Positions 9,463-30,816 of a stretch of 64,000 nucleotides of DNA are shown here, one piece after another. The first letter of the stretch is position 1. Each line of letters begins with the position of its first letter. Position numbers and translations under genes: made by a program. The notes beneath the pieces are model-generated. The model saw nothing but the letters and a program-made list of their open reading frames with translations. It was not told the DNA's origin and did not search any database. The DNA is from Microvenator marinus (lineage in GTDB: Bacteria; Myxococcota_A; Bradymonadia; Bradymonadales; Bradymonadaceae): positions 5,480,001-5,544,000 of the forward strand of contig NZ_CP042467.1 of NCBI RefSeq assembly GCF_007993755.1, read 5' to 3'.

Positions 9463-12400
9463 AGTCGGATCTCCACAGCGACAGGAAAGATGCTGATTTC
9501 CCCATCGAGCTCAAGGCGGTTGGGAAGGATGTGTTTCAAGAACTCTTCTTCTTGCTTTTTGACGGATTCCAGAAGCTGAGCGTAATGAGATTCGCGCAGT
9601 TTGATTTCGTCCTCAAGCGACCGAATCTTTTCCATTCGACGCTGTTTTGAGTCGCTGTCTAAAGCCTGTTGCGCTGTCTCTTTTTCGAGGTCAGCTTTAA
9701 GCTTATCGACGTTCTTTGACTGGCTCTCGCTTTTGATTTCGTTAATGCGTTCTGTATAACGTTGCTTCTCGGCTTTGATGACCGCAGGCCGGTGTTCTTT
9801 GAGAAGCGATTTGATCTGCTCTGACCTTGCCCCTTTAAGGGACTTTACGAACTCCATGCAGTCCAGGGCAATATCGGTCCAAATGTCGCGGGCGATTTCA
9901 AGTTGAACTGGTGTTGCGGATTCACCGGTTGGTACCTCTGTAGGCGGCCGATACGGCATTGGGGTTTGAAGTTGACCGTCCTTGATCGGGATTTCAATGG
10001 TTCGGACCCAATGATGCAGCGGTTCACGGAGCTTGTTTATGGCCAGCTCCTCGACGGTGAACAGGAGAAGTGCATCCATTCCGTTGGGGACTCCACCCGT
10101 CCGTACAATCCAACGGGATGCGTCAAGAGTGGTCGAATATTCACCCTTCACCACGCCTGCATTTGGGAAACGCGCTCGTGCAAACTGCGCCAGCGTTTGT
10201 TTAAATAGCGGATGGCCGAGGTGCATCAGGACTGTATCTTTTCTGTGCCGGAAAACGCGCCGCTCCCCAACTTGTTCGGTCATCGTACCCGAATCGAATG
10301 CCAGTCGCGGAAGGGCACCCGATTGGGCACGGTCGGCAATCCCTTTGCGCAAGGTTGAGTCGATTAGATAGTTCCAGTGAGGCGGAATGGGGTGATTGAG
10401 GCTGTATCGTCCACCATCGGAGGAGGATAGGCGTGGAAGTCCAGTCCCTATCCCTAAGGCAGCCTCCAAGGTTGACTTCAGTGAATCTGGGGTGAGATCA
10501 ATATGGTCTTGAAATTCTCCGATGCGTGCAGCTTCCTCCAGTAAAACATCATCTTGCGATTTGGTTTCACCCAGGTCGAGTTTGGCCTCACTTGTCTTTT
10601 GGACGTGTGCCGTCCGTCGATCCAGATTTGGCAAAGCATTTTTCGATTCTGTGAGCGACGAAAACTTCTCTTCGAATGCTCTTTCGAAGACTTCGCCCAT
10701 GGTTTGGAGGTCGTTGCGAATGGTATGTACCTTGGTAATAACCCGGGCCATAAATTTTAGGTCATCTGCAGCACTGCTATCGAAGTGATTGACTTCAACG
10801 GTTCGAGCCTGACCATGACGATCGAGGCGCCCGTTGCGCTGTTCAAGGCGCGCAGGATTCCATGGAATATCCCAATGAAAGAGCAGGCGTGCACTCTCTT
10901 GCAGGTTTAGACCTTCAGACGCGGCGTCTGTCGCGATCAGAATCCTGGCTCCTGAATCTGGGTCGTTGAAGATGAGCTTAATCTCCTCCCGTTCGGCACG
11001 TTGCATTCCGCCAAAGAGCTCGCGAATGTGAAAGCGTGTGTGGTCTTTGAACCGTGTTCTGAGTCTGTGAGACAGATAGTTCAGCGAGGTCATATATTCA
11101 GTGAAGATAATCAGGCGTTCATCCGAACGCCAACCTTTGTCTTGCCTCAAACGGTCCTCAATGAAGTTTGCGAGAATATCAAAGCGTGCGTCTTCTGTTG
11201 GGACTTGGACTATGCCTGACTCAACAGGTTTCAGTCCCAACGTGGCGAGACTTCTGTCTAGCGTCTCAATCTCAGACTTCAGTTTGTGGTAATATTGCTT
11301 GAACCATTCACCCGTGGTTTCTGCTGCAAAACGCTGAACACGCTCATGCTCGACATCGTCGTCTATCTCTCGATCCACAGCACGTTTGGCATTTGCTACG
11401 TCGCTCTGGTTGGCACTCTGAACGTCCTTTTCGGGTGAGCCGTCCATTCCATGGCGAAAGCGGAACCAAGAGTCAGCAAAGGTTGTGGGACCTGATAGTA
11501 GGCGCTTGTTGAGCACCTCCAAAGAGAAACGACCCGCCAGCAACTCCTTCATGTCATTCTTGGGGAGTTCCCTCAGCAGTGCCAATCGGAAGCTTTCAAA
11601 CGCGCGAAAAAGCTGAAGCTCGCCAGGACCAAAATTCACGTCATTGGACTTCAACTCCCGATCTGCAAATCGGGGGGGGCGGTTGTTTTCCAGGTCCAAA
11701 TTGTTGATGTCACTTTTCAAGCGCCTCACCACGACCTCGGAGATCCGTTTTTTCATCCCCTGGTTCCGTTTGTCGTGAAGATCGCTGGTGCGATGAAAGC
11801 GGCTAGGGTCCAACTGTTCCAAAAGACCTGTGAAGCAGCGCGTATGGCCGTTATGTGGCGTTGCGGTAAGAAAGAGCTTGTGTTCAAACCAAGGGCTTAT
11901 GATTCTCAACATGTTCGCTAGATCACTATCTTCGCCATAGTTTGCCGGCATAAGATTATGCGCTTCATCCACGATCAAGAGATCCCACGGCATGTGCGAA
12001 GGTTGAGTTGGGTCGTTTGACTCCGTAGCTGCACGGAACTCTTCCATCACATTGGGTTGCCTCAAATAATGGTAAGAAGCGATAGCCCTAGGAAAGACTC
12101 GCCAAGGATTCGCATCCATACCAAGGCGCTTCTTGAGGTTGATGGTCTCGTCCCGATCGATCACATCAAAGCTTAGGGCAAATTTCTCGTCCATCTCCTG
12201 TTGCCACTGGTCGCGAAGTGAAGCAGGGCACAAGATTAGAACTCGTCGGATACGTCTTCGGATGAGTAGCTCATTGAGGATCAGGCCGGCCTCAATGGTT
12301 TTTCCAAGACCCACATCGTCGGCGAGCAACAAGGATACACGCGGCATCCTTAAGGCTTTGAGCATTGGGACAAGCTGGAAGTCTTCTACTTGAACCGCAC

Positions 12401-12755
12401 CGTGGAAGGGGGCGGAGATCGGCTCTGCTCCTTTCTTGCTGGGATCTTCCGGCGCCAGGAAAGGCGTCAGAGCGCCCCAACGCGTTGCGCGCAAGAGCGC
12501 ATCATACTCATGAGCGAGCATTGGGGGCGACTTCTCGACAGCTGGAAGCGCAAGGGGAAGGACACAGGTTGCATTGGGTTCACGCTCCCAGATGACTTGG
12601 TCCTCTTGGACGCCGTCGGAGTCGGTGTAGCTGATCGTAACCAGGTGCAATATGCCGTCGGACTTGCCGTCGAAGGGGTGCAGATTGGTGATGATGCCGC
12701 GACGATTGCGGACTGTTGCCATCATGCCAACGCGAGGGAGTTGGAAGTCAGCCAT
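9459..12755 (-). CDS. drmD: SNF2-family helicase (DrmD-like)
   Basis: A Swi2/Snf2 helicase with motif I DDVGLGKTIEAG, motif II VDEAH, motif III LFLTATPHNGH, a helicase-C segment IFTEYMTSL, motif V ATDAASEGLNLQ and motif VI NGRLDRHGQ. A long Lys/Glu-rich coiled coil lies near the C-terminus. I chose the ATG at 12755 (protein starts MADFQLPRVG) because family members begin close to the VRNRRG segment and because this leaves about 160 bases for divergent promoters. The frame stays open to a GTG at 12893, which would leave only 24 bases to mcrB, and none of the candidate starts has a strong ribosome binding site. First gene of the DISARM-like operon. Confidence 0.82.
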   Translation of the reverse strand: MADFQLPRVGMMATVRNRRGIITNLHPFDGKSDGILHLVTISYTDSDGVQEDQVIWEREPNATCVLPLALPAVEKSPPMLAHEYDALLRATRWGALTPFLAPEDPSKKGAEPISAPFHGAVQVEDFQLVPMLKALRMPRVSLLLADDVGLGKTIEAGLILNELLIRRRIRRVLILCPASLRDQWQQEMDEKFALSFDVIDRDETINLKKRLGMDANPWRVFPRAIASYHYLRQPNVMEEFRAATESNDPTQPSHMPWDLLIVDEAHNLMPANYGEDSDLANMLRIISPWFEHKLFLTATPHNGHTRCFTGLLEQLDPSRFHRTSDLHDKRNQGMKKRISEVVVRRLKSDINNLDLENNRPPRFADRELKSNDVNFGPGELQLFRAFESFRLALLRELPKNDMKELLAGRFSLEVLNKRLLSGPTTFADSWFRFRHGMDGSPEKDVQSANQSDVANAKRAVDREIDDDVEHERVQRFAAETTGEWFKQYYHKLKSEIETLDRSLATLGLKPVESGIVQVPTEDARFDILANFIEDRLRQDKGWRSDERLIIFTEYMTSLNYLSHRLRTRFKDHTRFHIRELFGGMQRAEREEIKLIFNDPDSGARILIATDAASEGLNLQESARLLFHWDIPWNPARLEQRNGRLDRHGQARTVEVNHFDSSAADDLKFMARVITKVHTIRNDLQTMGEVFERAFEEKFSSLTESKNALPNLDRRTAHVQKTSEAKLDLGETKSQDDVLLEEAARIGEFQDHIDLTPDSLKSTLEAALGIGTGLPRLSSSDGGRYSLNHPIPPHWNYLIDSTLRKGIADRAQSGALPRLAFDSGTMTEQVGERRVFRHRKDTVLMHLGHPLFKQTLAQFARARFPNAGVVKGEYSTTLDASRWIVRTGGVPNGMDALLLFTVEELAINKLREPLHHWVRTIEIPIKDGQLQTPMPYRPPTEVPTGESATPVQLEIARDIWTDIALDCMEFVKSLKGARSEQIKSLLKEHRPAVIKAEKQRYTERINEIKSESQSKNVDKLKADLEKETAQQALDSDSKQRRMEKIRSLEDEIKLRESHYAQLLESVKKQEEEFLKHILPNRLELDGEISIFPVAVEIRL

Positions 12756-12917
12756 GAACACACTCAGGGTAAGAGAATTGCCACCAATGGATTCGAATTG
12801 TGCTTGTTGTAAACCTACCGCGCTCCCCGGGTCAATCTTCATCAGGATTCGAGTTGGTGGAATATGAGGAATCGCATATGGTTCGTGAAACACCTTCCCA
12901 AATGACGGTTAAATACG

Positions 12918-15374
12918 ATGGATGAAGCCAAGCTCAATCAGTTGGTCCAGGACCTCCGGCAGTTTCCCGAGTTGGTCGATACTGATGTCGTTCAAGCACT
13001 TACACTGTGTGAGAAATCGCTCCCCCGGTTGGCTGCTCTGGCGGAGGGGTATGGCGCGGAATGCAAACCCAACTACCATGATGAATCAACGGGGTTGCTC
13101 ACTGAGCAGCCCGCGTTCGACTTCGACTGGAAAGACTCTGGTCAGCATGCCCCCGTCTTGTTGATGCAGCTTTATTTTAGTCGGCATAAACCTGTTGGTT
13201 GGCGCCTTCGTATCGTGGGAAGTCAGGATCGCGGAGCAGCATGGTCGGAGCCCTTTCTGAACTGGCTTGAAACTCAACCCATTTCCAAGCGCTGGTCCAA
13301 CGTTGTGCAAGATCAAGTTTACTTGGAAAAGGAATTGGGAGAAGACCTGACTGAACTAGGAACCGAGTTGAGTTTAGGATTGGGATTTCTAAACTCGTAT
13401 GTGATAGCTAAGGAGCAATCCAAATCCGCGACCGAGCTTCTTGGCAAGCTAACGACACAATCCCATGTCGCCGAACAAAAGTTAGATTCTGTAGTGTTGG
13501 ACGCAAAGAACGTCATCTTCTACGGACCGCCTGGAACAGGTAAGACCTATCTGACATCAAGACGGGCAGTCGAGATCATTGATGGCAAGCGGGCTCCAGA
13601 GTCTTATGAAGAGGTGATGAAACGATATCGTGAGCTCTACGACCGTGACCAAATCGCGTTCGTAACTTTCCATCAATCTTACGGATATGAAGAGTTCGTC
13701 GAGGGAATTGCTCCCGACCTTCAGAGTGATGAGATCAAATACAAATTGCGTGATGGTGCTTTCAAGCGCCTTGCGCTTTTAGCGCTGAGCGAAGGGGTCA
13801 AAAAGGTTGATGATTTTGATAGTCGCTGGATGACTCTTTCGGCAAAGGCTGGGGATACCGGATTCAACGTTCAATCGAAGGAAAGAAAGGACTATATCCT
13901 GACGTTTGATGGGATGCGCTTTGCGCTCTCAGGCAACACAGAATACCCTTCAATAGCTCGCGACAAGCTCAGAAAGTTGTGGGACCAATTCAAAGATAGG
14001 GATCTGAAAGAGCTGACGTCCAAAGACTTTGCTGAACATGTACAAAACTTCACCCCTTTTTGGACTGTGCTCAACGCGATGAAAGAGCTGCCTGAGGCGG
14101 ATGTACGGCTATTCAGTGAGCCTGGGCAACTACCGTTGACGGAGTTGTTAGAACTCGCCAAGGAGTCGTTGGCACAACCTGAAGCCTTAGATTTCTCCAA
14201 TGCGCGTCGATACGTGCTCGTCATAGATGAGATCAATCGCGGGAATATCAGCAAGATTTTGGGGGAGTTGATGACGTTGCTTGAGCCCAGCAAACGTCTT
14301 GGTGATGTGCAAGCGATGATTGTAACTTTGCCTTCGGGCGAAAAGTTCGCAGTCCCGCCCAATCTCTATGTGATCGGGACCATGAACACGGCCGACCGGT
14401 CGATTGCGCTCATGGACGTGGCGCTGAGGCGGCGTTTCCGTTTCGAAGAAATGATGCCGAATGTATCAGTGATTGTGCGTTCTCTACTGATACATTTTGA
14501 GGAGAATTATCGCGACCTCAGTGAAGAGAACTTGCTTTTTGTGAATGTCTGTGTGGCAGTCTTTGAAAAGGTTAATCAAAGAATTCGTTTCTTGTACGAC
14601 GCTGACCACCAGATTGGTCATTCGTACTTCCTGAAAGTGAAGACTCTCAATGATCTCCAATTTGTCTTCTTGAATGAAGTGATCCCTCTTCTTCAAGAGT
14701 ATTTCTACGGTGCTTGGCGCAAAATCGCGCTAACCCTTGCGAACCCATACGATGATAAGGGTCTACCAAGGAGGAAAGATCTGCCGGCTAAGCACCACGT
14801 AATTTCTTGTACCAAACTTGAGGAGAAGAGCGTTTTACTCGTGGATGATGAAGACTATGAAGACCAGTATGAATTCGCGGTCTCAAACGAGTTCATGAGG
14901 GACTACCCGAAAGACGACTCAGATTTGCTTTCATTTTTCGCTGGTGTCGCAGGAGTTAGGATTGAGGAACTGAAGAAACTGGATGAACGTTTCAAAGAGA
15001 TCGAAGTGATGTTGGACTCGACTTCGGAAGTTGAAGTTTCAGGGGAGGAAAACGATGAGATTCAGCGAACCCGTCTGGCTATGGAGGTTAACGGTAAAAC
15101 CTATGAGGAACCCTATGTTCCGCGTTTTTTTGAAGCCGTCTTGTCTGACGTTTTTCAACATGCCAGCCCACCATTGCCGTATCGCCGCTCCTCACGACAC
15201 TTTGTCTCTCGTGATGGCCTGCATCCCGACGGCAAAGCGGCAATTCGACCAATTCCCATACAAACTCCGAACGGGATCGTTATCGTCGAAGGCAACTACG
15301 GTCGAAAAGATGCGTTGCGGCGATTGAGGGAACTGCTCACTGACATGGGCATAAGCCACAGGGACCCGGTTTGA
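12918..15374 (+). CDS. mcrB: McrB-like AAA+ GTPase of a McrBC restriction system
   Basis: 818 residues. The N-terminal 190 residues are of unknown fold and probably carry DNA recognition. The AAA+ module has Walker A GPPGTGKT at about residue 204, Walker B VLVIDEINRGN at about 433 and the family signature GTMNTADRS at about 487, followed by ALRRRFRF. The VTFHQSYGYEEFVEG segment after Walker A is also typical of McrB. McrB hexamers hydrolyse GTP and translocate DNA so that McrC can cleave, classically at modified cytosine. The stop overlaps the mcrC TTG start. It is divergent from the DISARM-like operon and lacks an obvious Shine-Dalgarno sequence. Confidence 0.9.
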   Translation: MDEAKLNQLVQDLRQFPELVDTDVVQALTLCEKSLPRLAALAEGYGAECKPNYHDESTGLLTEQPAFDFDWKDSGQHAPVLLMQLYFSRHKPVGWRLRIVGSQDRGAAWSEPFLNWLETQPISKRWSNVVQDQVYLEKELGEDLTELGTELSLGLGFLNSYVIAKEQSKSATELLGKLTTQSHVAEQKLDSVVLDAKNVIFYGPPGTGKTYLTSRRAVEIIDGKRAPESYEEVMKRYRELYDRDQIAFVTFHQSYGYEEFVEGIAPDLQSDEIKYKLRDGAFKRLALLALSEGVKKVDDFDSRWMTLSAKAGDTGFNVQSKERKDYILTFDGMRFALSGNTEYPSIARDKLRKLWDQFKDRDLKELTSKDFAEHVQNFTPFWTVLNAMKELPEADVRLFSEPGQLPLTELLELAKESLAQPEALDFSNARRYVLVIDEINRGNISKILGELMTLLEPSKRLGDVQAMIVTLPSGEKFAVPPNLYVIGTMNTADRSIALMDVALRRRFRFEEMMPNVSVIVRSLLIHFEENYRDLSEENLLFVNVCVAVFEKVNQRIRFLYDADHQIGHSYFLKVKTLNDLQFVFLNEVIPLLQEYFYGAWRKIALTLANPYDDKGLPRRKDLPAKHHVISCTKLEEKSVLLVDDEDYEDQYEFAVSNEFMRDYPKDDSDLLSFFAGVAGVRIEELKKLDERFKEIEVMLDSTSEVEVSGEENDEIQRTRLAMEVNGKTYEEPYVPRFFEAVLSDVFQHASPPLPYRRSSRHFVSRDGLHPDGKAAIRPIPIQTPNGIVIVEGNYGRKDALRRLRELLTDMGISHRDPV

Positions 15375-16756
15375 ATCGGCTTACGGCGGTCGAGTATGAA
15401 CGTGTCTATCTTGGGGACGAGGACACCATCACGGGTGAACGGGACTCGAGTGGAAAGACGCTCATTCATCCCAAACATTTTCGTACACTCCAAGAGTTTG
15501 ATGAGGGGCACGCAGAAGAGTCGAAGCAGATTTTTCAGTGGCGGAGCAAATATCTGCAGCCCAAGAATTGGATCGGGATAGTTCAGGTCGGAAGCCTAAT
15601 CGTTGAGATCTTGCCGAAGATCTATCGGGCTCCAAAAGCGCCAGGCACTGAGGGACAGGAAACCGAAGAAGTGTTTCAGCGCAAGAATCTGCTCTATATG
15701 CTGAGTCTGAGCGGCGATCTTCCACTCCGCGATCGCGACCTTGCCTCACAGAGCCTGCACAAAGCCCCCATCTCAGAGACGCTGATTCGGCTCTTCGCCG
15801 AACAGCTGCTCGAACAGCTTCTCCTGGGCGTTCAGCATGGATACGTCCATCAGGAGGATAATCTGCGATTCCTGAGGGGTAAGCTGAAGTTCTCGCAGCA
15901 TATCAAGCACAACTTCGCCCGAGCCGACCGCTTCTATACGGTCTACGAAGAATTCCTGGCCGACACTCCCTTGAACCGCATCTTCAAGGCTACGTGCGTG
16001 CGTTTGCGCGACATCACACGCAGACCAGCATCACAGGAGCGGCTGGACAGCTGTTTGAGCATTCTGGACGAAGTCTCACTCAAGCCACTCATTGCCGCAG
16101 ACTTCGACAACTTCACAGAGAACCGACAGAACGCTCGCTTCACTTCCCTGATTAACTTCTGCAGATTGGTATGGGAGGGCAACATCGCGACAGGAATGCG
16201 CGGCAAGACAGCTACGTTCGCGCTACTCTTCGATATGAATGCCGTGTTTGAACGATTTGTGGCTGAGTTCATGAGGCGGCACGTGATTCGCGACTTTCCC
16301 GATGCTCAATTGAGTCCGCAATCAAAAGGCCTCCGCGAGTACCTCCTTTGGAGGCTCAACGACAAAGACGAACGCAAAGGCGTCCTGGAGCTCAAGCCTG
16401 ATATACTTGTCATGTGTGGAGACTCACCACGTTTGATCATCGACACGAAGTGGAAGCAGTTGGCCACAGAGAAAGGTAATCGCTATGGCGTGACGTCTGG
16501 CGACCTTTATCAACTCTACGCATACGCCACGCGGTACGACTGTAGTCATAACATCTTGTTATATCCATGGGTGCCCGATGTGAAGGAGCGCGATTACGAA
16601 CTGAGGGACGATGCCCGTCACCGGATAAGTACGCGCTTTGTCGATCTCTCGATGGATTTGACTCAACGGGAAGGTAGGGAAAAGCTTACTGATTATCTGA
16701 AAATAATTGTGGAAGGCGCAATTCCGCAAGAGGAGCACCATGCCTCAGCCGAGTGA
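15371..16756 (+). CDS. mcrC: McrC-like nuclease subunit
   Basis: 461 residues beginning at a TTG that overlaps the mcrB stop (TTGA); there is no ATG in frame nearby. The C-terminal half holds the PD-(D/E)xK nuclease core: ELKPDILV near residue 340 and IIDTKWK near 357. McrC stimulates McrB GTPase activity and supplies the endonuclease. The N-terminal part contains the expected LRGKLKF and TPLNRIFK segments seen in McrC proteins. Its last bases overlap the start of the macro-HEPN gene, making a three-gene unit. Confidence 0.9.
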   Translation: MNRLTAVEYERVYLGDEDTITGERDSSGKTLIHPKHFRTLQEFDEGHAEESKQIFQWRSKYLQPKNWIGIVQVGSLIVEILPKIYRAPKAPGTEGQETEEVFQRKNLLYMLSLSGDLPLRDRDLASQSLHKAPISETLIRLFAEQLLEQLLLGVQHGYVHQEDNLRFLRGKLKFSQHIKHNFARADRFYTVYEEFLADTPLNRIFKATCVRLRDITRRPASQERLDSCLSILDEVSLKPLIAADFDNFTENRQNARFTSLINFCRLVWEGNIATGMRGKTATFALLFDMNAVFERFVAEFMRRHVIRDFPDAQLSPQSKGLREYLLWRLNDKDERKGVLELKPDILVMCGDSPRLIIDTKWKQLATEKGNRYGVTSGDLYQLYAYATRYDCSHNILLYPWVPDVKERDYELRDDARHRISTRFVDLSMDLTQREGREKLTDYLKIIVEGAIPQEEHHASAE

Positions 16757-17939
16757 ACCATGGAGTTGGTCCTTGGGGAGCGTGACGTTGGAGGTTCGCG
16801 GCCAAAGCCTCTTAGACGCACCCGAAAGGGCATGGGTGAGTAGTGAGGACTCTGGCTTCTACATGGCGCGGAATCCATCGGCTATATCCGGTCAGCTGCG
16901 TAGGCATTTCCCTTATGTTTTAGACGAGCTCCGAGCTCAGACGCGTGGTGAGGTATTACCACCTGGGACCACACTTCGAACGAATGGTCCGGAAGGACGC
17001 GTGATTTTTCATGCGGGGTTTCACCATCCCAATGACTGGGATCTCTCGGATGATGAACTTGTGGCCAAGCATGCGTCCATGATTCAGCGCTGTATTGAGG
17101 ATATTCTTGAGTCTGTGGCTGAGACCGGCCTAGAGAGTGTGGCGTTTCCTATGTTGGGAACCGGACTTTTTCATCTGCCTGTTTCTGTGTTTGCCGAGAC
17201 CTTCTTTGAGGCGGTGGCTATGTTCAGCCGGCGAACACATAGAGCTGTCAAAGTCGTCCTATGCATCCTTGAACCAGCGCTGATTGAAGAAGTTGTCCGC
17301 TTTGGTACGAGGGCGCTCGGCGCGATGGTGGGTGGGGGAGAACCACTATTGCGAGAGGCAGGAGGACACCCAATTGTGCAGGGTCTGAGGCATACTGCGC
17401 GGGCTTTGGCGGATGAAAAGTTACAAGAGCGCAATCTTCTTCACTTTGCCGAGATTGCGCTCATGACTGACCTCGCACTCTTTTACGATTTTGAGGACAA
17501 GCCTCCCTCTGTTTTGCTCGACAAAAACGGTGGTAAGGGCGAGTGCAACCTTACTTTCGGAATCATTCGAAACAGGCTGGAAGGATTACGAATAAGGCGC
17601 CGTATACCCGAGTGGGCGATGCATCGTTACCAGCAAATCTGCAGTCAACCCTTCCAGAAAGCAATTGGTCGTCTTGTAGGAGACCGTAATGATTACGCCC
17701 ATAACCGTCGCCCAAGGCCAGTGGAGGATATTGTAACGGATATCGAATCTTTGTTTGGACCGGAGGTTCTCACCGAGACATGGAAAGACGCAGAAACACA
17801 TAGGTGGATACGTTCATTTCCTGCCGGATATGGTCTTTTGGACGGCGTTGATCCAGTGCGCGGCCGTTGTTCGTGGTTGATTCCCGAGGTTAGGCAACGA
17901 GTTCACGAGGATTTTGAAATGGATGTTCAAGAAGTGTAA
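16740..17939 (+). CDS. Macro domain fused to C-terminal HEPN domain
   Basis: 399 residues from the ATG at 16740, which has a strong AGAGGAG site; an upstream in-frame start at 16707 lies deeper inside mcrC. Residues about 65-180 resemble a macro (ADP-ribose-binding) domain: VIFHAGFHH, then SVAFPMLGTGLFHL and a VVLCIL strand. The C-terminal half is helical and contains RNDYAH near residue 315, the R-x4-H motif of HEPN ribonucleases. The gene overlaps mcrC by 17 bases, so it is translated with McrBC. It may sense or remove ADP-ribose-type modifications and cleave RNA as a second line behind restriction; that is inference. It converges with the GTPase gene below, the two 3' ends overlapping by 50 bases. 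Confidence 0.72.
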   Translation: MPQPSEPWSWSLGSVTLEVRGQSLLDAPERAWVSSEDSGFYMARNPSAISGQLRRHFPYVLDELRAQTRGEVLPPGTTLRTNGPEGRVIFHAGFHHPNDWDLSDDELVAKHASMIQRCIEDILESVAETGLESVAFPMLGTGLFHLPVSVFAETFFEAVAMFSRRTHRAVKVVLCILEPALIEEVVRFGTRALGAMVGGGEPLLREAGGHPIVQGLRHTARALADEKLQERNLLHFAEIALMTDLALFYDFEDKPPSVLLDKNGGKGECNLTFGIIRNRLEGLRIRRRIPEWAMHRYQQICSQPFQKAIGRLVGDRNDYAHNRRPRPVEDIVTDIESLFGPEVLTETWKDAETHRWIRSFPAGYGLLDGVDPVRGRCSWLIPEVRQRVHEDFEMDVQEV

Positions 17940-18897
17940 GCGTGTCGAGGATGACTTTGGCGAGCGGGTCGATCATTGATTCCTGCAAAGCGACTTTCAC
18001 CAGCAGTTTCCTCTGAGCCAGCGTCCATTTCGAGGTTGCTCTAGGTAGGTCTTCGAGGAATTCTGAGTCGAGCAAGTGCCTGTGGTACTTCGTTAGTTCT
18101 TCGAGGGCCTTGGCTTCAATGCTTTTGGCGTCGCGTTGGAAATATTTGGCCTTGATTCTTGCGAACCAGGACTTATAGCCACCATACTCTTCGATCACGG
18201 AAGCAAGTAACCCAATACGGCCGGAGACCTTGTAGATTTGCCGATTCAAAGCGCTGGTAAAGCCTCTTTCGCTTTCTGCTCTAGCTATCATCCTGCGCAG
18301 CCTATCCTCCAATTGTCTTGCACTCGCATTTGGTTCACGATCGTTCAGAAAAATATCCACCTTGTTGAGTACATAGATGATGTTCGTTGGGTTATCTGAC
18401 AAACTCATAGCAAGGTTGAGCGAATCAAACTGTTTGCGCTCGTCAGTTTCATCGGCACCAAACACAACAACAGACACCGCACCTTCCGTCCGCCCGTGAG
18501 AGTGTCGGTCATCACCCACCCAGCGTACTCCAGGTGTATCCACCAACGAGATCGCCAAATCACGCCTTTTGATTCGACTTCCAATACGGGTGGGCCAGTT
18601 GATTTCAAATCTGGGTGGAGCCAGATCCCCTCGGGAATGGTATATTTCCATCACTTCGCGTAACCGCCCCCCGATCTGCTCAGGGCTCCGAAAGTCGAAA
18701 GAACCGCATTCCCAGCATGCACCATCCGTTTCGGCAATATTCAAAGACTTCCGTCTGGAATGGCTAACGCGGGTAAGACCAGCAGTCATTTCTTGAACTG
18801 CGTGAGGAAGAAGATCAGCCCCGATGAGCGCATTCGCAAGTGTGCTCTTGCCGGAACTTGTAGTTCCGAAAAAGAAGACTTCCCTTTGTTGTTTCAA
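17890..18897 (-). CDS. Short dynamin-like GTPase
   Basis: 335 residues. G1 is GTTSSGKST (11-19), G3 is DTPG (120-123) and G4 is NKVD (178-181). Shared segments AVQEMTAG and WPTRIG, and the C-terminal LPRATSKW, show it is a shortened paralogue of the large dynamin two genes upstream. The start is a TTG with AGAGG six bases before it and no better ATG. It lacks the long helical stalk, so it probably works with the large GTPase. It is the last gene of a four-gene operon, 9 bases after the membrane protein gene. Confidence 0.8.
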   Translation of the reverse strand: MKQQREVFFFGTTSSGKSTLANALIGADLLPHAVQEMTAGLTRVSHSRRKSLNIAETDGACWECGSFDFRSPEQIGGRLREVMEIYHSRGDLAPPRFEINWPTRIGSRIKRRDLAISLVDTPGVRWVGDDRHSHGRTEGAVSVVVFGADETDERKQFDSLNLAMSLSDNPTNIIYVLNKVDIFLNDREPNASARQLEDRLRRMIARAESERGFTSALNRQIYKVSGRIGLLASVIEEYGGYKSWFARIKAKYFQRDAKSIEAKALEELTKYHRHLLDSEFLEDLPRATSKWTLAQRKLLVKVALQESMIDPLAKVILDTLTLLEHPFQNPRELVA

Positions 18898-18906
18898 GTT
18901 TGCCTC

Positions 18907-19752
18907 TTAATGTTTGAAGCCAACAACTTTGGGGTCCGGAACTCCCATTGAGAAAACTCCCAGTCGGGTCAGCTCTACCTTGCCCAGAAAAGATGCGAAC
19001 TGGAACTTACTCTCCGGGAGGGCCTCGCCCTTCCAGGAATACGCAACAGCCCACAGGTTTTCAGTTGTTTCGGTCAAATCCTTGGAAGGGGTGAGAAGGG
19101 CTTCCTCTTGAAGCAATCTCCAATCCGCTGCCGATCCCGTCCAATAATAGCGGGCCTGACTTACCTGCTCCTTGAGCGACAGATGTTCTCCCGCGAAATC
19201 CTCGGCATTCTCAGTGTGTCGTGCAAAAACGACAAATTGTTCTGACGTACCTGACTCTGCTTTGGGAGTTGAACGCACAGGTTGAGGATTAGGCTCTTTG
19301 TCCGGCTTGTTCTCCTGCAAATTCACGGTGGGCTCTTTCCTGCTACGACTCCACACAACTAAGAGACCACCCGCGACAAGCGCAACCACGACGGCGACTC
19401 CGACCCATCTTAAGTCCAATTCCATGTCCATTGAATCTCCCCTGGAATCGTCCCTCACCGCATGTGAGAGATGATCTCGTTTACGTTGACGTGGCAAGCG
19501 TCCACCTCCATTCTCATCCAGAAAGTCTTGATAAAAGTCTCGGTTTCGGCGCGCTTTCGAAGCCAAAGTCGGGTTCACCAATTCTAAGCATTTTGTCGCG
19601 AGTTGTTCGCCGCGATAGTGTTGAGAAGAGATTGCCTCTTCGTAGAGTTCTCGATTCTGTTTTCCAAAGAATTCGAAGGTTTCATCAGTCCACGCGCCAT
19701 AGTCGTACGGCGCCTTTAAGGCTCTGATGTTTTCCGCCACAAGATCCTTCAT
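18907..19752 (-). CDS. Single-pass membrane protein in dynamin operon
   Basis: 281 residues from the ATG at 19752, which overlaps the large dynamin stop as ATGA and has GGAG nine bases upstream. Residues 1-110 are a charged, helical cytoplasmic-looking region. One transmembrane helix follows at about 116-134 (WVGVAVVVALVAGGLL), then a charged linker and a C-terminal domain rich in Trp and Glu. No family recognised. With no signal peptide the N-terminal part should lie in the cytoplasm, where it could recruit the GTPases to the inner membrane. Its place between the two dynamin genes argues for one complex. Confidence 0.7.
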   Translation of the reverse strand: MKDLVAENIRALKAPYDYGAWTDETFEFFGKQNRELYEEAISSQHYRGEQLATKCLELVNPTLASKARRNRDFYQDFLDENGGGRLPRQRKRDHLSHAVRDDSRGDSMDMELDLRWVGVAVVVALVAGGLLVVWSRSRKEPTVNLQENKPDKEPNPQPVRSTPKAESGTSEQFVVFARHTENAEDFAGEHLSLKEQVSQARYYWTGSAADWRLLQEEALLTPSKDLTETTENLWAVAYSWKGEALPESKFQFASFLGKVELTRLGVFSMGVPDPKVVGFKH

Positions 19753-22100
19753 TTGAGCTTTCTCCAATCTTCGCCGTCTTGAACACGCTGACGCAGCTTA
19801 TCTATACCTTTCTCATGTGATTCCACGATCCGGACTTTTACTTGAACACCTTTCTTGAGTTCCTTCAATCGGTCTTGCAGCTGCCGCCGGTACTCATTCA
19901 CGCCAGCCTCCAGTGTCGACTCCAGTTCATGGTCAAACCCCTTGATGGATTCGACGAGCCACTCTCGGACGCTGTCCTCGAGATTTGATGTCTCAAACGA
20001 GCCTCCGAAGCTGGCCAGAATGGACTCATAACTGCCAAACTTCATTCCGCTAGCAGATTTCTCGATAGTTACCACCACACTCTTCGTGAAGAAGGGGATA
20101 TATTTCCAACGTTGTTGTTTGACTATGTTGACCTCTTTCAAGGTCTCGCTCCAGCGCTCGATGTCGGGCTCAAAATGGATTCTTTGGATCTGCAATTTTG
20201 GAATGCTGAATTGGCGGTGAAAGAGGTCGCCAAGGCCCTTGAATTGATGACCATTCGCCGCAAGGATTTCATTTGCGTTCTTTCCCAACTGTTCAGCGAT
20301 CTTTGTTTCTATTTCCTGCAGCAGATTTTCGAGTCGCTTACCCTGGATTTCTGACTCACGTACAAGTAGTCGATTGGCCGTATTCGTAAGCGCGCGGCTG
20401 AAAGCATTAAGGTCTTTCTTCGTTTGTTCAGCCTGGCTGTCTTCAATCTTTCCGCCGGTTTGGGAAATGGCGCCATACGGGCCAGCCATCAAGTTTCGCA
20501 AACTCTTCTGAAGCTCCTTTCCTCCGATACCATCGAGGAGTTCGTCGTGCCCACCTTCCTGAGTGCCGCTCTCCCAAGTGTAGGCCATCAAGCGGTCTAG
20601 CGGTTGTTTAACAATATCATGAAACACGGACCAGAGAGGCGCCGCATTCAATCCCAATCCGGAACTCAAAATTTCGCCAGCGTTTACGAGGTGAATTTGA
20701 AGATCTTCGTCCTCCGGCAGATCTCTCAATGGCCCGACTAGCCCTAACACTTCGGCTTGGCTTGCCATTAGTTGCTGGTTGATTTCTTCTAGTCTTTGCT
20801 GGGCGTCCTCTACCTCCTGCTCACGTAGCAATTTGAAAGTCGAAATCCGAGTATCGAGGAATCTGAGGACGTTTCGTGCTGGTTCGGACGCTTCCTGTAC
20901 TAGGTGTGGAAGGAGAAGCTCGGGGAGATTCTTGGCGATATGGTCTCGCAGCGTGGCCTCAAATCTATCCAATCGTGCCCCTTTGGAACCAATCTGAACG
21001 AATTCCTTCTTTTCTTGGGCGGAAAAACGGGATGCGCTTCGCGGCAATTCGTTCAAGAACTCTCTTGGGAAAAGGGCGTTATAGTGTTTGTCGAGGTTGC
21101 TGATAGCAGTTTCTTGGCTCTCTGCAGAGCTGTTCGGATTATCAGCCATGAGTGTCATGAGCGCAGGTTCGCTGGAGAAGCCGAGTGGCAATATTTTCTT
21201 GATTTCATCTGCATACTCCGGAAGTGCCTCCCGTAGTTTCGATTGGACAGCGTGTGTGACCCGGTGCGTGAAAACCTTCTCGCTTTCCTCGGGGTTTGGG
21301 TCGGTCAGGAATGCATCAATTCTATTAAGGATGAACATCATTCGAGCGGGAGAGCCGCCTAGCACCTTGACTTGGTCGACCACCTGATTGAGCAACGCTG
21401 CTTGTTTGTTGGCGTCAGTCTCATAGGAGTTGTACGCCACAATACACATTGCTCCCTTCGCTTCACGCTTAACGACGTCTCCGTTAAGGTTATCGTCCAC
21501 ATACTTCAACCCAGGGAGGTCAAGGATACGTATCTTGCAGCCCTTTGGAAGGCCAAAGGCATCTGCATTAAGCCCGAGCCTCGTGGGCCACTGAACCGTG
21601 CATGAAGGAGGTTCAATCTCTTCGCATTCGTGAGGGGCCAGACCATCGAGGGCATTGCGATACGCCTCCATGAGCTTCGCAAGTCGGTCCTGAATTTCTT
21701 CGGCCGAAAGATCGGTCCACTCCCCCGTCTCCCACTTGGCGTTTTTCGTATCCGTTACTTTCAGTCGTCGGATCTGGTCGTGTTCGATTGTTACGACTCC
21801 AGCGCTCATCTCTTGAACTGCCTTAGGCAGGAGTGCATCGCCAACAAGTACGTTTGCAATCGTACTTTTCCCGGAGCTCGTTGTGCCGGTGGTGGCCAAA
21901 ACCACGGTGGGTTGTTGCGCCTCCCGTTTCAGCCTGACTACTGAGTCCTTCAGCTTTTGAAGCTCTTGACGTACTTCGGGCAGGGAGGTTTCCAAAGCGG
22001 CTTCAATATCAGGGACGAATTCCTCGAAAGCTTCCGTGGCCCGGTCCCATTGGAGTGCCACGTTCATCAGCAAGGTCCCTACAGAGCTCTGGTTAGGCAT
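19749..22100 (-). CDS. Large dynamin-like GTPase
   Basis: 783 residues. After a helical N-terminus come G1 GTTSSGKST (72-80), the switch-like segment AVQEMSAG, G3 DLPG (194-197) and G4 NRID (259-262). The remaining 400 residues are predicted helical with several coiled-coil stretches, as expected for a bacterial dynamin-like protein with a stalk. Bacterial dynamins bind and remodel membranes, and some (DynA, LeoABC) act in phage tolerance or vesicle release. The ATG has GAGG upstream and overlaps the preceding gene by 8 bases. Confidence 0.85.
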   Translation of the reverse strand: MPNQSSVGTLLMNVALQWDRATEAFEEFVPDIEAALETSLPEVRQELQKLKDSVVRLKREAQQPTVVLATTGTTSSGKSTIANVLVGDALLPKAVQEMSAGVVTIEHDQIRRLKVTDTKNAKWETGEWTDLSAEEIQDRLAKLMEAYRNALDGLAPHECEEIEPPSCTVQWPTRLGLNADAFGLPKGCKIRILDLPGLKYVDDNLNGDVVKREAKGAMCIVAYNSYETDANKQAALLNQVVDQVKVLGGSPARMMFILNRIDAFLTDPNPEESEKVFTHRVTHAVQSKLREALPEYADEIKKILPLGFSSEPALMTLMADNPNSSAESQETAISNLDKHYNALFPREFLNELPRSASRFSAQEKKEFVQIGSKGARLDRFEATLRDHIAKNLPELLLPHLVQEASEPARNVLRFLDTRISTFKLLREQEVEDAQQRLEEINQQLMASQAEVLGLVGPLRDLPEDEDLQIHLVNAGEILSSGLGLNAAPLWSVFHDIVKQPLDRLMAYTWESGTQEGGHDELLDGIGGKELQKSLRNLMAGPYGAISQTGGKIEDSQAEQTKKDLNAFSRALTNTANRLLVRESEIQGKRLENLLQEIETKIAEQLGKNANEILAANGHQFKGLGDLFHRQFSIPKLQIQRIHFEPDIERWSETLKEVNIVKQQRWKYIPFFTKSVVVTIEKSASGMKFGSYESILASFGGSFETSNLEDSVREWLVESIKGFDHELESTLEAGVNEYRRQLQDRLKELKKGVQVKVRIVESHEKGIDKLRQRVQDGEDWRKLK

Positions 22101-23496
22101 AGCTGACCTCCGCTTCTATCCTGGAATTCCAGTCTTCCTTTGAGAGAAAGTCTAAGACCGTCTCGAATTTCTCTTGGTCGAGAGATTTGGTTCCAAAAAC
22201 CTGCTCGACAGCTTGCGCAGAAACCGTCATGCGGCCGATAGTGGTTCCGCTCAACTCGTTCCAGGCAGCTTGTGAGCGCAAGCTTGGAAACTTGTACTCG
22301 CTTTCAAGCGAATTGCTGCCACTAAGACTGAAGTCACTCAGCTTCTCGCGTAGAGAATTCATTCCATCATCCCAATGCAGCAACTGCTCGGCAATGAAAG
22401 GCTCCATGCGAGTGCTGCCATCGGCGTCCACAATCTCCACGTACGTCACGAGGTTTTCTGACAAGGAGCGCCGCAAGTAGACATAGTGTGCAATGAGCTC
22501 GGCATTACCAAACGTTACTTGAAGGAAAGGTCCGTCAGAAAGTGCACGGATCTCATCGGCAATCTGCGTGCGAAGCTCCATCAGGGTGCTGTGTTTAGCC
22601 TCTGGTGCTTCATTCAGAATTGTTCGGGCATCGATCTCCTGACGCAGTGCCATGACTTGCCCGATAAAATAGGGCAGTCGTTGAGGATTACCTTTTTCAA
22701 GAGTGTTGATTCGAGTAGCTAACCAAGCCTGAAGTTCTATCGACTCTCGAACGATTCCTCTCAAATCGCTCTCGACTGCCTCGTCTCCGATCGCAATACG
22801 GTTTGTTACCGCTTCATAGTAGGTGTAGACCTTCCTCAATTGAGTTTCGAGGTCCAGCGCCTCCTGCCGCACAGTTTGATTCGCGATTGCGTCCAGAATT
22901 CTCTCGACACCGATTTCCACTTGTTTCGACAACTCCTCAATTGCTCCTGCCAGTTGCCCCTGTTGCTCAATAATTACACCGAGAAGTGCGCTGTTGTAGT
23001 TGATCAAATCGCTGAGTTGTTGCGTTGAGGCGTAGACAAGATCTTCGATGCGGTCGAGACGATAGCCAGTTTCAATACCCTGAGCCAGAACCACGTTTTC
23101 TAGATTGGCGATGCTTGTCTTGATCTCGCCGAGTTCACGTTTCGTGTGCTTTTGCATTTGATGCACCTTCCAAAGGGTCGCAACACCAACCCCAAGACCA
23201 ATAAGCCCAACACCCAAACCCAAACTGCCGACCACCAGTCCCGCCTTAGCTACAGCCAAAGACTTGGTCGCCACACTAAGCGTTTTGAGTCCTACGGCAA
23301 GATTGGAAGCGCTGAGTAGTCCCTGAAGGGGCGCTGCTCCTCCCATTGCCATTTTTGTCCCTGCGGCAACCACATGTGGTAAGAACTTCCCACTAGCGAG
23401 ATGTCTCGTTCCCCATCCTCCGCCCTTTGCGAGTTCAACCACGTAATCAGCTGCAACGCCACCAAGCCAAAGTTTCGGTCCAACACCAGGTAACAT
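22093..23496 (-). CDS. Gly-rich hydrophobic and coiled-coil protein leading the dynamin operon
   Basis: 467 residues, no recognised family. Residues 85-109 are a Gly-zipper-like hydrophobic stretch (GLVVGSLGLGVGLIG) that could insert into or span a membrane, preceded by an Ala/Gly-rich amphipathic region. Residues 110-210 look like a coiled coil (EIKTSIANLENVVL and onward). The C-terminal half is charged and helical. The start has an excellent AAGGAGG site at 23501-23507. As first gene it may be the membrane-active effector or anchor that the two GTPases act on; the sequence shows only the hydrophobic and coiled-coil character. Confidence 0.7.
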   Translation of the reverse strand: MLPGVGPKLWLGGVAADYVVELAKGGGWGTRHLASGKFLPHVVAAGTKMAMGGAAPLQGLLSASNLAVGLKTLSVATKSLAVAKAGLVVGSLGLGVGLIGLGVGVATLWKVHQMQKHTKRELGEIKTSIANLENVVLAQGIETGYRLDRIEDLVYASTQQLSDLINYNSALLGVIIEQQGQLAGAIEELSKQVEIGVERILDAIANQTVRQEALDLETQLRKVYTYYEAVTNRIAIGDEAVESDLRGIVRESIELQAWLATRINTLEKGNPQRLPYFIGQVMALRQEIDARTILNEAPEAKHSTLMELRTQIADEIRALSDGPFLQVTFGNAELIAHYVYLRRSLSENLVTYVEIVDADGSTRMEPFIAEQLLHWDDGMNSLREKLSDFSLSGSNSLESEYKFPSLRSQAAWNELSGTTIGRMTVSAQAVEQVFGTKSLDQEKFETVLDFLSKEDWNSRIEAEVSYA

Positions 23497-23873
23497 TCTG
23501 CCTCCTTAACCTAAAGCGCTCCAAACTCCGAACCTTTGAGGGAAATGGGAGTGCTGACAAATAAGTAGAATCGTTGTCGACGAACGATCTCACCTGTGAG
23601 CATCATGTCAATCGTGAATTGACTCCAAAGAACAACTTTCTTATTCGACGGTACGTATCATGCCGTGTTTGGTGTTTCTCTCCCAAAAGATTGGGGGCCG
23701 AGAGCATCGGATTAGGCACCTGTGTTCTCGAACGTACGAAAGCGACAGTGCCTCCAATTGGCCAGACGTTGAGATCTACGTACTTGAATCGCTTTGCAGA
23801 TAGCGATGTGTTGGTTGACATGGTGTAGTCTTGCGCAAACACTGGCTGTAAATCTCTCATAATGCAGGGTGAT
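23497..23873 (+). promoter_or_regulatory. Divergent intergenic region between dynamin operon and second mcrBC
   Basis: 377 bases with no convincing gene. It must hold the promoters for the dynamin operon (leftward) and mcrB (rightward). Leftward, the strong AAGGAGG site is at 23501-23507. Rightward, TTGCGC at 23831 and ATAATG at 23860 are weak core-promoter candidates. No clear operator palindrome was seen. Confidence 0.4.
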
Positions 23874-25982
23874 ATGAGTAACGATGAGCCACGGGCGAAA
23901 CATTGGTTGGTAAACACTGTCTCGCAGAAGAAGGAATACCTAGACGAGTTCGTGGAAGAAGGAGTTTGGCGCCTTCTCGGACCGTCTGCTAGGAATCGTG
24001 AGTTGGTGAAGTCGATGAGGGCCGGAGACCGGATTGCTGCCAAGACTACCTTTGTGACGAAGGCGGGCGTGCCATTCGACAACAGGGGAAATCCGGTTTC
24101 AGTGATGCGTATCAAGGCAGTGGGAACCGTTGTGGAAAACTCAGGCGATGGCGAGTCGGTGAAGGTTGAGTGGGAGATCCAGGAGCCAGCCCGCGATTGG
24201 TACTTCTTCACTTACATTCATCACGTCGCTTTGCTCGAAAGGAGTACTGGTCTTACTCCCGACCTGATTCGTTTTGTCTTTGAAGGAGAAGAGCAGGATC
24301 TTGATAAATGCCTGAGTCATCCGTTCTGGCACGATCGCTACTTGGACAAATTCGCGTGGACCCAGTTCTTTGAGGATTTTGCCACAACGCTACTCAGCTA
24401 TCGCGAAGATCGCTCCGGCTTGCTTCAAAAGCTAGTTTCCGTGGATGGTACGACACCAAGATTTAGTCTGATTGATCGCTTCTCCGATGGGACTCAGGGG
24501 GTACTTAGGGATATATGCCCCTTTACCACGATGGGGGTGTTCAACCGCACGATGACTTGGGAGAATCGGTATCGCATTGGTAAGGCGCTCGCTGAAGTAC
24601 TCGAGGTTCCAGGCGCACCACCCAAGGGGTTTACGGGAGTGCCGTGCCTCAACAACCAGAACACGTATTTTTTCCCTTTTGCGCACGATCGTCCCGATGA
24701 CCACATCGACAAACTCTGGCACGTGTTTGAATGTGGACTTGCCTTCGCGGACTCCGAGGGAACACAAGGGCGTGAGGAGTTTATCCGGGCGTTTGACGAG
24801 GCCAAGAAGCTCAAGTTCGTGCATTGGAATCTGACTTTTGGCCTCTATTGGGCGCGTCCTTGGTTTTTTGTGGGGCTCGATTCGCCGAACCGTGAGTTTC
24901 TCTCGAAAGTCTTCCGCATTCCTCTCAAGAAGGTACCTTCCGGCAAGGAGTACGTTGAACTTCTCGAAAAGTTGAAAGGCTACTTTGTGATGGAGGGCTG
25001 CCCCGTGGATTCGTTCCCGGCACTCGCGATGGGCGGCGACTTTAAGCCATTTCCCCCGATTTCAACGCAGCCCGAAAGAGACAAGGTGGTGGTTATGGTC
25101 GAGTACGCAGCGCAGGACATTTTGGATGAGGGGTGTTTTCTTCCTCTGGAGCAAATTGAGAAATTGCTGAAAAGAGTGCGGAGCAAGAAGAACCTGATTC
25201 TCCAAGGTCCTCCGGGTACCGGTAAAACATGGCTCGCGCGCCGATTGGGCTACGCGCTGGTGGGTGAAAGGGAAGAGGCTAAGGTTAAGTCAGTGCAGTT
25301 TCATCCGAACCTCTCCTACGAGGACTTTGTGCGCGGTTACAGGCCGAGTGGGGAGGGAAAGCTGGTCACGGCTGACGGAATCTTCATCAACATGGTCAAC
25401 ACGGCGCTCGCAGACCCTGAAAGCAACTATGTCTTGGTTATCGAGGAGATTAACCGCGGAAACCCGGCTCAGATTTTCGGTGAGTTATTGACGCTGCTGG
25501 AGGACTCAAAACGTCATGAGTCGGAGGCGATCGAACTCACCTATGCTGACCAAAACGGGGAGCGACGAGTCTATGTGCCTGAAAATCTGTATGTCATTGG
25601 GACCATGAATCTGGCAGACCGCTCACTAGCCTTGGTGGACCTAGCCCTTCGTCGCCGCTTTGCGTTTGCCGACCTAAAACCTGAACTTGGGTCTCAATGG
25701 CGAGCCTGGGTCCAAGCCATGGGACTTTCGGAGCCAATTGTGGAAGAGATTGCCAGACGCATGTCGGACTTGAATCAGATGATTGAGGACGACACGCGTT
25801 TGGGTAAGCAGTTTAGAGTAGGGCACAGCTATGTCACGCCATCGGTGGAGCTCTCGCATGAGAGCTGGACGTGGTTTCAAGACGTCGTCGAACACGAGAT
25901 AGCGCCGCTACTTGAGGAATATTGGTTCGATAGCCCCAAGGACTTCAAAGTGGCGGTTGAGCGTCTTAAACAGCCTTTCTGA
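23874..25982 (+). CDS. mcrB: McrB-like AAA+ GTPase with N-terminal EVE-like domain
   Basis: 702 residues from the ATG at 23874, which has AGGG five bases upstream; the ATG at 23862 lacks such a site. Residues 1-120 (KHWLVNTVSQKKEYLDEF, then SMRAGDRIAAKTTF) resemble the EVE/PUA-like domains that read modified cytosine in McrB-type proteins. The AAA+ module has Walker A GPPGTGKT at about 444, Walker B VLVIEEINRGN at about 519 and GTMNLADRS at about 576. The domain differs from that of the first mcrB in this window, which suggests a different target. Its TGA shares a base with the ATG of mcrC. Confidence 0.88.
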   Translation: MSNDEPRAKHWLVNTVSQKKEYLDEFVEEGVWRLLGPSARNRELVKSMRAGDRIAAKTTFVTKAGVPFDNRGNPVSVMRIKAVGTVVENSGDGESVKVEWEIQEPARDWYFFTYIHHVALLERSTGLTPDLIRFVFEGEEQDLDKCLSHPFWHDRYLDKFAWTQFFEDFATTLLSYREDRSGLLQKLVSVDGTTPRFSLIDRFSDGTQGVLRDICPFTTMGVFNRTMTWENRYRIGKALAEVLEVPGAPPKGFTGVPCLNNQNTYFFPFAHDRPDDHIDKLWHVFECGLAFADSEGTQGREEFIRAFDEAKKLKFVHWNLTFGLYWARPWFFVGLDSPNREFLSKVFRIPLKKVPSGKEYVELLEKLKGYFVMEGCPVDSFPALAMGGDFKPFPPISTQPERDKVVVMVEYAAQDILDEGCFLPLEQIEKLLKRVRSKKNLILQGPPGTGKTWLARRLGYALVGEREEAKVKSVQFHPNLSYEDFVRGYRPSGEGKLVTADGIFINMVNTALADPESNYVLVIEEINRGNPAQIFGELLTLLEDSKRHESEAIELTYADQNGERRVYVPENLYVIGTMNLADRSLALVDLALRRRFAFADLKPELGSQWRAWVQAMGLSEPIVEEIARRMSDLNQMIEDDTRLGKQFRVGHSYVTPSVELSHESWTWFQDVVEHEIAPLLEEYWFDSPKDFKVAVERLKQPF

Positions 25983-27094
25983 TGGAGCTTGCTCACGATA
26001 ACGCTTTTGTGGGTCGCATTCCGGTGCGTAACCTCTGGTTGCTCATGCTCTACGCGTCCGACTTGTTCGGGCTGCAGCGGGAGTTGGGCGAGGTGAGCTT
26101 TGAGGAGGAGCCGGACGAGCTGCCGGATTTGGTGGCGCGGATTCTGGTGGACATCGTCGACCGCCGCATTCGCCGCCAACTCAATCGCGGCTATCAGACT
26201 CGTCGCGAAAACCTCACGCGTGTGCGTGGACGTATCGATATGCTCAAAACCGAGCGCCACTCGCTCCTGCAGCGTGGCCTTGTGGCGTGTGAGTTCGAGG
26301 AGATGACCATCGACACGCCGCGCAATCGTTTTGTGCTCCACGCGCTGCAGACGATTGGTGTGCTGGTGAAGAATCAGGACCTCGCGCATGAATGCCGTGT
26401 GCTCGCTAATAGCCTGAAGTTGATGGGAGTGTCGGGCATCGCTCCTACGCGAAAAGTAATCGACGGTGAGCGCTTTGGGAGGCACGATGCGGCGGATAGG
26501 TTGATGGTTGCGGCAGCCAAGTTGGCAGTGGATTTGGCGATGCCCACCGAGTCCCTAGGGAGCCACCAGATGGTGCTGCCGGACCGAGAGGGGCATTGGG
26601 TCAGGAAACTCTTTGAAAAGGCAGTGGGTGGCTTCTACGCGGTTGTGCTGCCTTCTGAGTGGAGGGTGAAGCCGGGCCGGAAGCTAAGTTGGCAGGTGGA
26701 GGACCCGAGCCCCGGCATTCTGAGCGTTTTGCCCAACATGGTGACGGATATCGTCCTGGACCATACGCCGAGCGGGCAAAGGCTCGTCATCGACACCAAA
26801 TTCAACGATATCTTCACCAACGGACGTTTCGGCAACACGTCTTTGAGGAGTAAGTACATCTACCAGATGTACGGGTATCTGATGTCACAGACGGGGCGAG
26901 GCAAACCTAAGTGGGATAGCGCAAATGGACTTTTGTTGCACCCGGCGGTGGGTGCCATGGTGGATGAGTGGGTCACCATTCAGGGACACACGATTCGCTT
27001 CGCCACCGTGGATCTGACCGCTTCGGCGGCAGTAGTCCGCACGCAACTGCTCCGCGTCATCGAACCCGCGGGCTCAGCGCTCTTGCTCTGGTAG
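25982..27094 (+). CDS. mcrC: McrC-like nuclease subunit (second system)
   Basis: 370 residues. The N-terminal NAFVGRIPVRNLWLLMLYAS is characteristic of the shorter McrC class. The nuclease core is visible as MVTDIVLDH, then LVIDTKFN, followed by YIYQMYGYL. The start overlaps the mcrB stop. The 3' part of this gene is duplicated twice downstream (28095-28738 and 30389-30748), both copies broken; this one is intact, so it should be the working subunit. GC content is visibly higher than in the first mcrC. Confidence 0.88.
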   Translation: MELAHDNAFVGRIPVRNLWLLMLYASDLFGLQRELGEVSFEEEPDELPDLVARILVDIVDRRIRRQLNRGYQTRRENLTRVRGRIDMLKTERHSLLQRGLVACEFEEMTIDTPRNRFVLHALQTIGVLVKNQDLAHECRVLANSLKLMGVSGIAPTRKVIDGERFGRHDAADRLMVAAAKLAVDLAMPTESLGSHQMVLPDREGHWVRKLFEKAVGGFYAVVLPSEWRVKPGRKLSWQVEDPSPGILSVLPNMVTDIVLDHTPSGQRLVIDTKFNDIFTNGRFGNTSLRSKYIYQMYGYLMSQTGRGKPKWDSANGLLLHPAVGAMVDEWVTIQGHTIRFATVDLTASAAVVRTQLLRVIEPAGSALLLW

Positions 27095-28053: not shown

Positions 28054-28094
28054 ATGACTCCCCTCTTCTTGTCGAGTGTTAGAGGAGACAGGAA

Positions 28095-30775: not shown

Positions 30776-30802
30776 CCTTGGTGCACGTATTATTCACCAA
30801 GG
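30776..30802. promoter_or_regulatory. Perfect 8-bp inverted repeat upstream of Abi_2 gene
   Basis: Arms CCTTGGTG (30776-30783) and CACCAAGG (30795-30802) with an 11-base spacer, followed at once by TACAAT (30804-30809), a good -10 candidate, and the ATG at 30817. A run of T precedes rather than follows it, so it is more likely an operator than a terminator. If TACAAT is the -10, the transcript would be nearly leaderless. Confidence 0.5.
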
Positions 30803-30816
30803 CTACAATTCCACCA

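Follow-up and report, generated by a model that had tools for sequence, protein, structure and literature searches.

Dynamin-like proteins (DLPs) of bacteria are mostly encoded in pairs within operons (PMC6104087), and cyanobacteria carry many of them (PMC6104087 and the main text of PMC5827413); the main text of the latter work distinguishes six cyanobacterial DLP clades, with KGK, HSR1, DnaK or tandem partners. Among the better described relatives, the LeoABC proteins have been linked to vesicle release (PMC4159319), Eleos is listed among defence systems as dynamin-like (PMC11811056), and SynDLP (Slr0869) of Synechocystis is reported to form ordered oligomers by itself (PMC10104851). Here, we describe an operon of two dynamin-type GTPases and two membrane-type proteins found in a 64,000-nucleotide stretch of the Microvenator marinus genome (NZ_CP042467.1, positions 5,480,001 to 5,544,000; referred to below as the window, to which all positions given without a locus number belong). 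Our best explanation, held tentatively and with somewhat less than even confidence, is that the four genes form one variant of a so far unnamed membrane dynamin module that has spread horizontally and would, in this genome, most likely serve phage defence.

The operon is encoded on the minus strand and comprises, in 5' to 3' order, the open reading frames GZ (22093-23496, 467 amino acids (aa)), Dyn1 (19749-22100, 783 aa, a dynamin-like GTPase), TM (18907-19767, 286 aa if started at a TTG codon, 281 aa if at the ATG in position 19752) and D335 (17890-18897, 335 aa, TTG start). GZ and Dyn1 overlap by 8 bases, Dyn1 and TM by 4 bases with the ATG start of TM (19 bases with TTG), and 9 bases separate TM from D335, in agreement with the arrangement given in an earlier note on this DNA. 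Shine-Dalgarno-like sites precede GZ (AAGGAGG), Dyn1 (GGAGGT) and D335 (AAGAGG), and a promoter and terminator scan gave signals at the level of shuffled sequence.

A genome-wide scan for relatives yielded 79 loci, among which two cassettes dominate, Dyn1-TM-Dyn2 (type A) and Dyn1-TM-GlyZip (type B). When the partners were counted in those loci where 3.5 kb or more of sequence follows Dyn1, the combination of Dyn1 and TM with Dyn2 was found in 32 loci (cyanobacteria and Methylococcales) and that with GZ in 15, i.e., 13 of type B and two of Dyn1 clade A, the latter being the window and the Gluconobacter locus L011. Dyn2 and GZ occurred together in no counted locus, and a member of the TM family stands beside Dyn1 in nearly all intact loci. 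The gene order GZ-Dyn1-TM is common to the window, L011 and the Acetobacter locus L017, and in the Dyn1 tree the window joins Gluconobacter and Acetobacter (support 99/97). The earlier note had made its proposal depend on joint conservation of all four genes; the exact set was found in the window only, whereas the conserved unit is a core of Dyn1 and TM with either Dyn2 or GZ as third partner, and the window contains Dyn1, a TM family protein and one such partner.

Several loci depart from the two cassettes. In L009, a proteobacterial metagenome-assembled genome (MAG), type B-like Dyn1 and TM are combined with Dyn2, and in two Clostridia loci (L088 8497-9897 and L085 66-1459) another partner of about 470 aa, without a Pfam match, lies upstream of Dyn1-TM and is possibly a third kind of exchangeable component. 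The Acetobacter MAGs RGIG5182 and RGIG1504 from ruminant abomasum carry several dispersed Dyn1 copies, many of them split or solitary (L012-L017, L061, L086 and L087), as if Dyn1 had been amplified there and were now decaying. Extra genes surround Dyn1-TM-Dyn2 in the Methylococcales loci L023 (7068-9778 and 15385-16023) and L038 (16151-17779): two additional GTPases, one of which matches IIGP weakly, are encoded before the cassette, and a Gly-zipper-like protein of 212 aa is encoded after it, in L038 together with a NERD-helicase.

The large GTPase Dyn1 matches Pfam Dynamin_N (3.7e-11) and has intact G1, G3 and G4 motifs. AlphaFold2 modelled it with confidence (mean pLDDT 84.4) as a GTPase (G) domain followed by a long helical neck/trunk (helices 377-454, 554-615 and 704-775) and a beta-hairpin (647-688), the low-pLDDT tip of which contains the sequence YIPFF (667-671), a candidate membrane-binding tip or paddle. 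The best Foldseek match in the PDB was BDLP of Nostoc (2j69, E=9e-11), followed by mitofusins, IniA, SynDLP and LeoA, the last ranking 26th. The global template modelling scores of these matches are low, as is usual for hinged multi-domain proteins compared in differing conformations, and the assignment is therefore one of superfamily membership, not of a specific conformation. The dynamin-type GTPase domain, characterized by motifs G1-G4, was detected as Dynamin_N in both Dyn1 and D335, and the stalk of the dynamin superfamily is present in Dyn1 according to the modelled helices and the BDLP fold match. From its sequence and predicted fold, Dyn1 is a BDLP/mitofusin-like GTPase of a known kind.

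TM was described in the earlier note as a single-pass membrane protein, and hydropathy analysis likewise predicted one hydrophobic helix (residues 115-133); its C-terminal domain carries a YWxG..W motif conserved in the alignment of relatives. Profile comparisons (window against type B, E=2e-5; type A against type B, E=1e-9; L009 against type B, E=7e-6) assign the TM proteins of the cassette variants to one family. Neither TM nor GZ matched any Pfam or NCBIfam family, PDB sequence searches with both gave marginal, probably spurious matches, and no relatives of TM were found on plasmids.

In GZ, one Gly/Ala-rich hydrophobic stretch (residues 80-101, hydropathy) is followed by a long coiled coil; this part of the earlier description as a Gly-zipper/coiled-coil protein holds, with "Gly-zipper" kept as a descriptive label only. 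Homologues were detected with phmmer in Gluconobacter L011 (2e-11) and Acetobacter L017 (8e-8), and within the phylum of the window a search for GZ gave matches in the window's own genome only. Window GZ matches the Nostoc GlyZip protein of type B weakly (pairwise E=4e-4, hhalign probability only 7%), and the two are probably homologous. The AlphaFold2 model of GZ is all-helical, of low confidence and unusable for structure search. The Gluconobacter homologue (L011 7149-9923, plus strand) is longer, 924 aa, with an extra N-terminal part containing an HNH-like motif, for which no PDB relative was found and whose HNH_4 match (E=0.034) falls below the Pfam cut-off.

These features bear on a sub-case of our explanation, abortive infection, in which GZ would be a toxic membrane-inserting protein that the dynamin releases or assembles and that D335 restrains, and in which the membrane would be permeabilised. 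The hydrophobic segment with its coiled coil, the additional, weakly HNH_4-like part of the Gluconobacter protein and the exchangeability of the third partner, effectors often being exchanged, are consistent with such a role. However, neither the Pfam nor the PDB sequence searches revealed a toxin fold or homologue for GZ, the model and the HNH match are both of low quality, and the Dyn2 protein that occupies the same slot elsewhere is no obvious toxin; we consider this sub-case improbable.

The second GTPase, D335, was presented in the earlier note as a 335-residue dynamin and a paralogue of the larger one. The paralogy is borne out by BLASTP (E=2e-42, 30% identity across about 350 aa) and by the motifs AVQEM(S/T)AG and WPTR(L/I)G, shared by Dyn1 and D335 (at residues 94/171 and 33/101); as to its being a dynamin, the GTPase domain is there (Dynamin_N, 1.4e-13) but the stalk is not. 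In profile comparisons (hhalign), D335 matched Dyn1 with E=3e-43, as against 4e-5 for the large Dyn2 of related cassettes; the latter similarity is limited to the P-loop, and an orthologous relationship with Dyn2 was rejected. Judging from these alignments, D335 is a whole Dyn1-type GTPase domain without a stalk. In the tree it groups with the window Dyn1 (88/27, weak) within the clade of the window and Acetobacteraceae (99/97). No other locus among those found has a stand-alone head at this position, which marks D335, on present comparisons, as a window-specific addition to the module. Another extra short Dyn1-type GTPase was noted in a Chamaesiphon MAG (L016 15321-16730), where a 469-aa Dyn1-like frame follows Dyn2.

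It is also conceivable that D335 is merely a decaying duplicate and that the working system consists of the three genes GZ-Dyn1-TM. The restriction of the head to a single locus would fit this, as would its very long branch (3.38, compared with 0.58 for Dyn1), but the frame of 335 codons is uninterrupted, the G1, G3 and G4 motifs are intact, and the gene has a Shine-Dalgarno-like site and is tightly spaced to TM; we regard decay as rather unlikely.

Comparison with described systems showed both likenesses and differences. Eleos and LeoABC resemble the operon in having more than one dynamin GTPase, and in LeoABC a truncated GTPase head (LeoC) is encoded separately (PMC4159319), as D335 is here; yet the described Leo set has neither a TM nor a GZ partner, and D335 differs from LeoC in comprising the complete G domain and in lacking a membrane helix. 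Assignment to Eleos/LeoABC was rejected, as the PADLOC matches (LeoA, 1.2e-6; LeoBC, 0.0017) cover the P-loop region only, and MADS (mad8) was likewise rejected, its PADLOC matches being weak and mostly at the P-loop level. Tandem DLPs (Nostoc BDLP1, Campylobacter Cj-DLP1/2) share with the module the pairing of DLPs and, in the case of BDLP, the fold nearest to that of Dyn1, but the module has in addition a membrane protein, from a family not yet characterised, whose gene lies between those of the GTPases or next to them, and GZ can take the place of the second dynamin. DynA of Bacillus subtilis is a dynamin-like protein that reduces or delays phage-induced lysis at the membrane (PMC8844932); it is, however, a single two-headed fusion without TM or GZ, whereas our operon encodes its second head as a separate protein that has no stalk. 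SynDLP is the sole structurally solved sequence relative of type A Dyn2 (2e-6), with the similarity confined to about 100 residues of Dyn2.

PADLOC, Pfam and NCBIfam gave matches at the level of the GTPase domain or none, consistent with the statement in the earlier note that the set corresponds to no named system. No account of a Dyn-TM-(Dyn2/GZ) cassette was met with in the literature searched, which included PMC5827413 by its main text, where such a cluster is not mentioned. The dynamin itself is of a known type, and it is the Dyn1-TM-(Dyn2/GZ) composition that appears to be new in this so far unnamed module.

The distribution of the module is sporadic: it was present in 26 of the 245 genomes of the cyanobacterial order of a Nostoc host, in 2/300 genomes of the family of Gluconobacter and in 3/379 genomes of the phylum of the window, and 38 near relatives from the window's own family and class gave weak P-loop matches only. 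The Dyn1 tree spans several phyla, one copy lies on a conjugative Nostoc plasmid, and several copies are interrupted by frameshifts or stops, some of which are perhaps assembly errors. Because of the sporadic occurrence, the range of phyla and the conjugative plasmid, we take the module to be an accessory mobile function; this is the pattern expected of a horizontally moved function rather than of core cell biology.

The window copy lies in a clear defence island, between two McrBC systems, as the earlier note had recognized. On one side, McrBC system 1 (12918-16756, plus strand) encodes McrB-like (818 aa) and McrC-like (461 aa) proteins (Pfam AAA_5 and McrBC, 1.8e-76; NCBIfam McrC), and on the other, McrBC system 2 (23862-27094, plus strand; NCBIfam McrB 9e-82 and McrC 4.8e-114) is divergent from the operon. 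Also present are a DISARM-like pair (4345-12893, minus strand; PADLOC, Pfam) of a DrmMI/type IIG-like methylase (1705 aa) and a DrmD-like SNF2 helicase (1144 aa), and an AbiD (Abi_2) abortive-infection protein (30778-31788, plus strand; Pfam 1.4e-53, PADLOC AbiD 4.7e-66). We treat the McrBC systems, the methylase/helicase pair and AbiD as context of the island and not as parts of the module. A partial mcrC duplicate of 190 aa (28083-28655, plus strand), matching the second McrC (3e-106), is located just downstream of McrBC system 2. Between McrBC system 1 and the operon there is a gene for a macro-domain protein (16707-17939, plus strand; PF01661, 5.8e-7), convergent with D335 and overlapping its end by 50 bases; its C-terminal part contains, by eye, RNDYAH, an Rx4H motif as in HEPN nucleases.

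Elsewhere, McrBC adjoins the module in L009, as judged by similarity to McrB of the window, and genes for ArdA, DUF499, DUF1156 and SNF2 proteins adjoin the copy on the Nostoc plasmid. With phmmer, WYL regulators were detected near four loci, L011, L023, L038 and L043, of which three are from related Methylococcales, whereas 1.02 Mb of control DNA had none; apart from WYL, the local phmmer comparison of neighbours with control DNA gave little defence signal. NERD-helicase genes stand beside the L038 and L041 cassettes. The WYL regulator of L011 is divergent and upstream of the Gluconobacter GZ homologue, and DrmD-like helicases follow the type A cassettes of L031 and L054.

A number of observations weigh against the explanation preferred here. 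Enrichment of defence genes around relatives of the operon, which the earlier note had proposed to score, did not emerge as a general rule: 45 PADLOC families were matched by 139 genes from the neighbourhoods, most of them cyanobacterial, compared with 56 by 139 control genes, the comparison (E<=1e-8, controls from two cyanobacterial chromosomes, models including unspecific families) being a weak test. Several of the copies in cyanobacteria have genes of housekeeping type as neighbours (e.g., L072), no copy was found in viral contigs and phage records, and the plasmid copies amount to that of the one Nostoc plasmid. The GZ model is unreliable (pLDDT 53), and D335, with its long branch, could be decaying. 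The defence role of the window copy is reasonably supported by its location, and that of the module family is unproven.

A possible alternative, though we find it rather doubtful, is that the module is an accessory device for membrane repair, membrane remodelling or vesicle release that has nothing to do with phages, and that the window copy simply landed in a variable region that accumulates defence genes. This alternative would account for the concentration of copies in cyanobacteria, a group rich in dynamin-like proteins (PMC6104087 and the main text of PMC5827413), for the lack of a general PADLOC enrichment and, by analogy, agrees with the connection of LeoABC to vesicle release (PMC4159319). 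On the other hand, patchiness of the degree seen in the Nostoc order and the spread over several phyla would be unusual for a housekeeping membrane function, and McrBC, WYL or NERD-helicase neighbours recur in several non-cyanobacterial settings.

If the operon does act in phage defence, as we prefer to think, the soluble Dyn1 would be anchored by TM at the inner membrane, or TM would report to it there, and the third, exchangeable partner (GZ here, Dyn2 elsewhere) may set the output of the assembly. Perturbation of the membrane by infection could cause Dyn1 and TM to assemble, and GTP-driven assembly with GZ might then stabilise or permeabilise the membrane, resulting in less phage release. 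With intact nucleotide motifs and no stalk, D335 could act only by means of its G domain. Pairing of G domains is the obvious route for such an action in dynamin biology, and D335 would most likely pair in this way with Dyn1, limiting or triggering its oligomerisation. It is possible, but again rather doubtful, that the module represents an unnamed class of immune dynamins, in which a core of dynamin and anchor is fixed, the effector slot is swapped between Dyn2 and a membrane-inserting coiled-coil protein, and, in the window, a detached head acts as regulator.

Bacterial dynamins are common and their function is mostly unknown, and a conserved core with a partner slot offers a genetic handle on their interactors. 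Should the module turn out to be protective against phage, immunity acting at the membrane, of the kind represented by DynA and Eleos, would gain a multi-component class, and it would become possible to test directly what dynamin pairing and a GTPase head without a stalk contribute.

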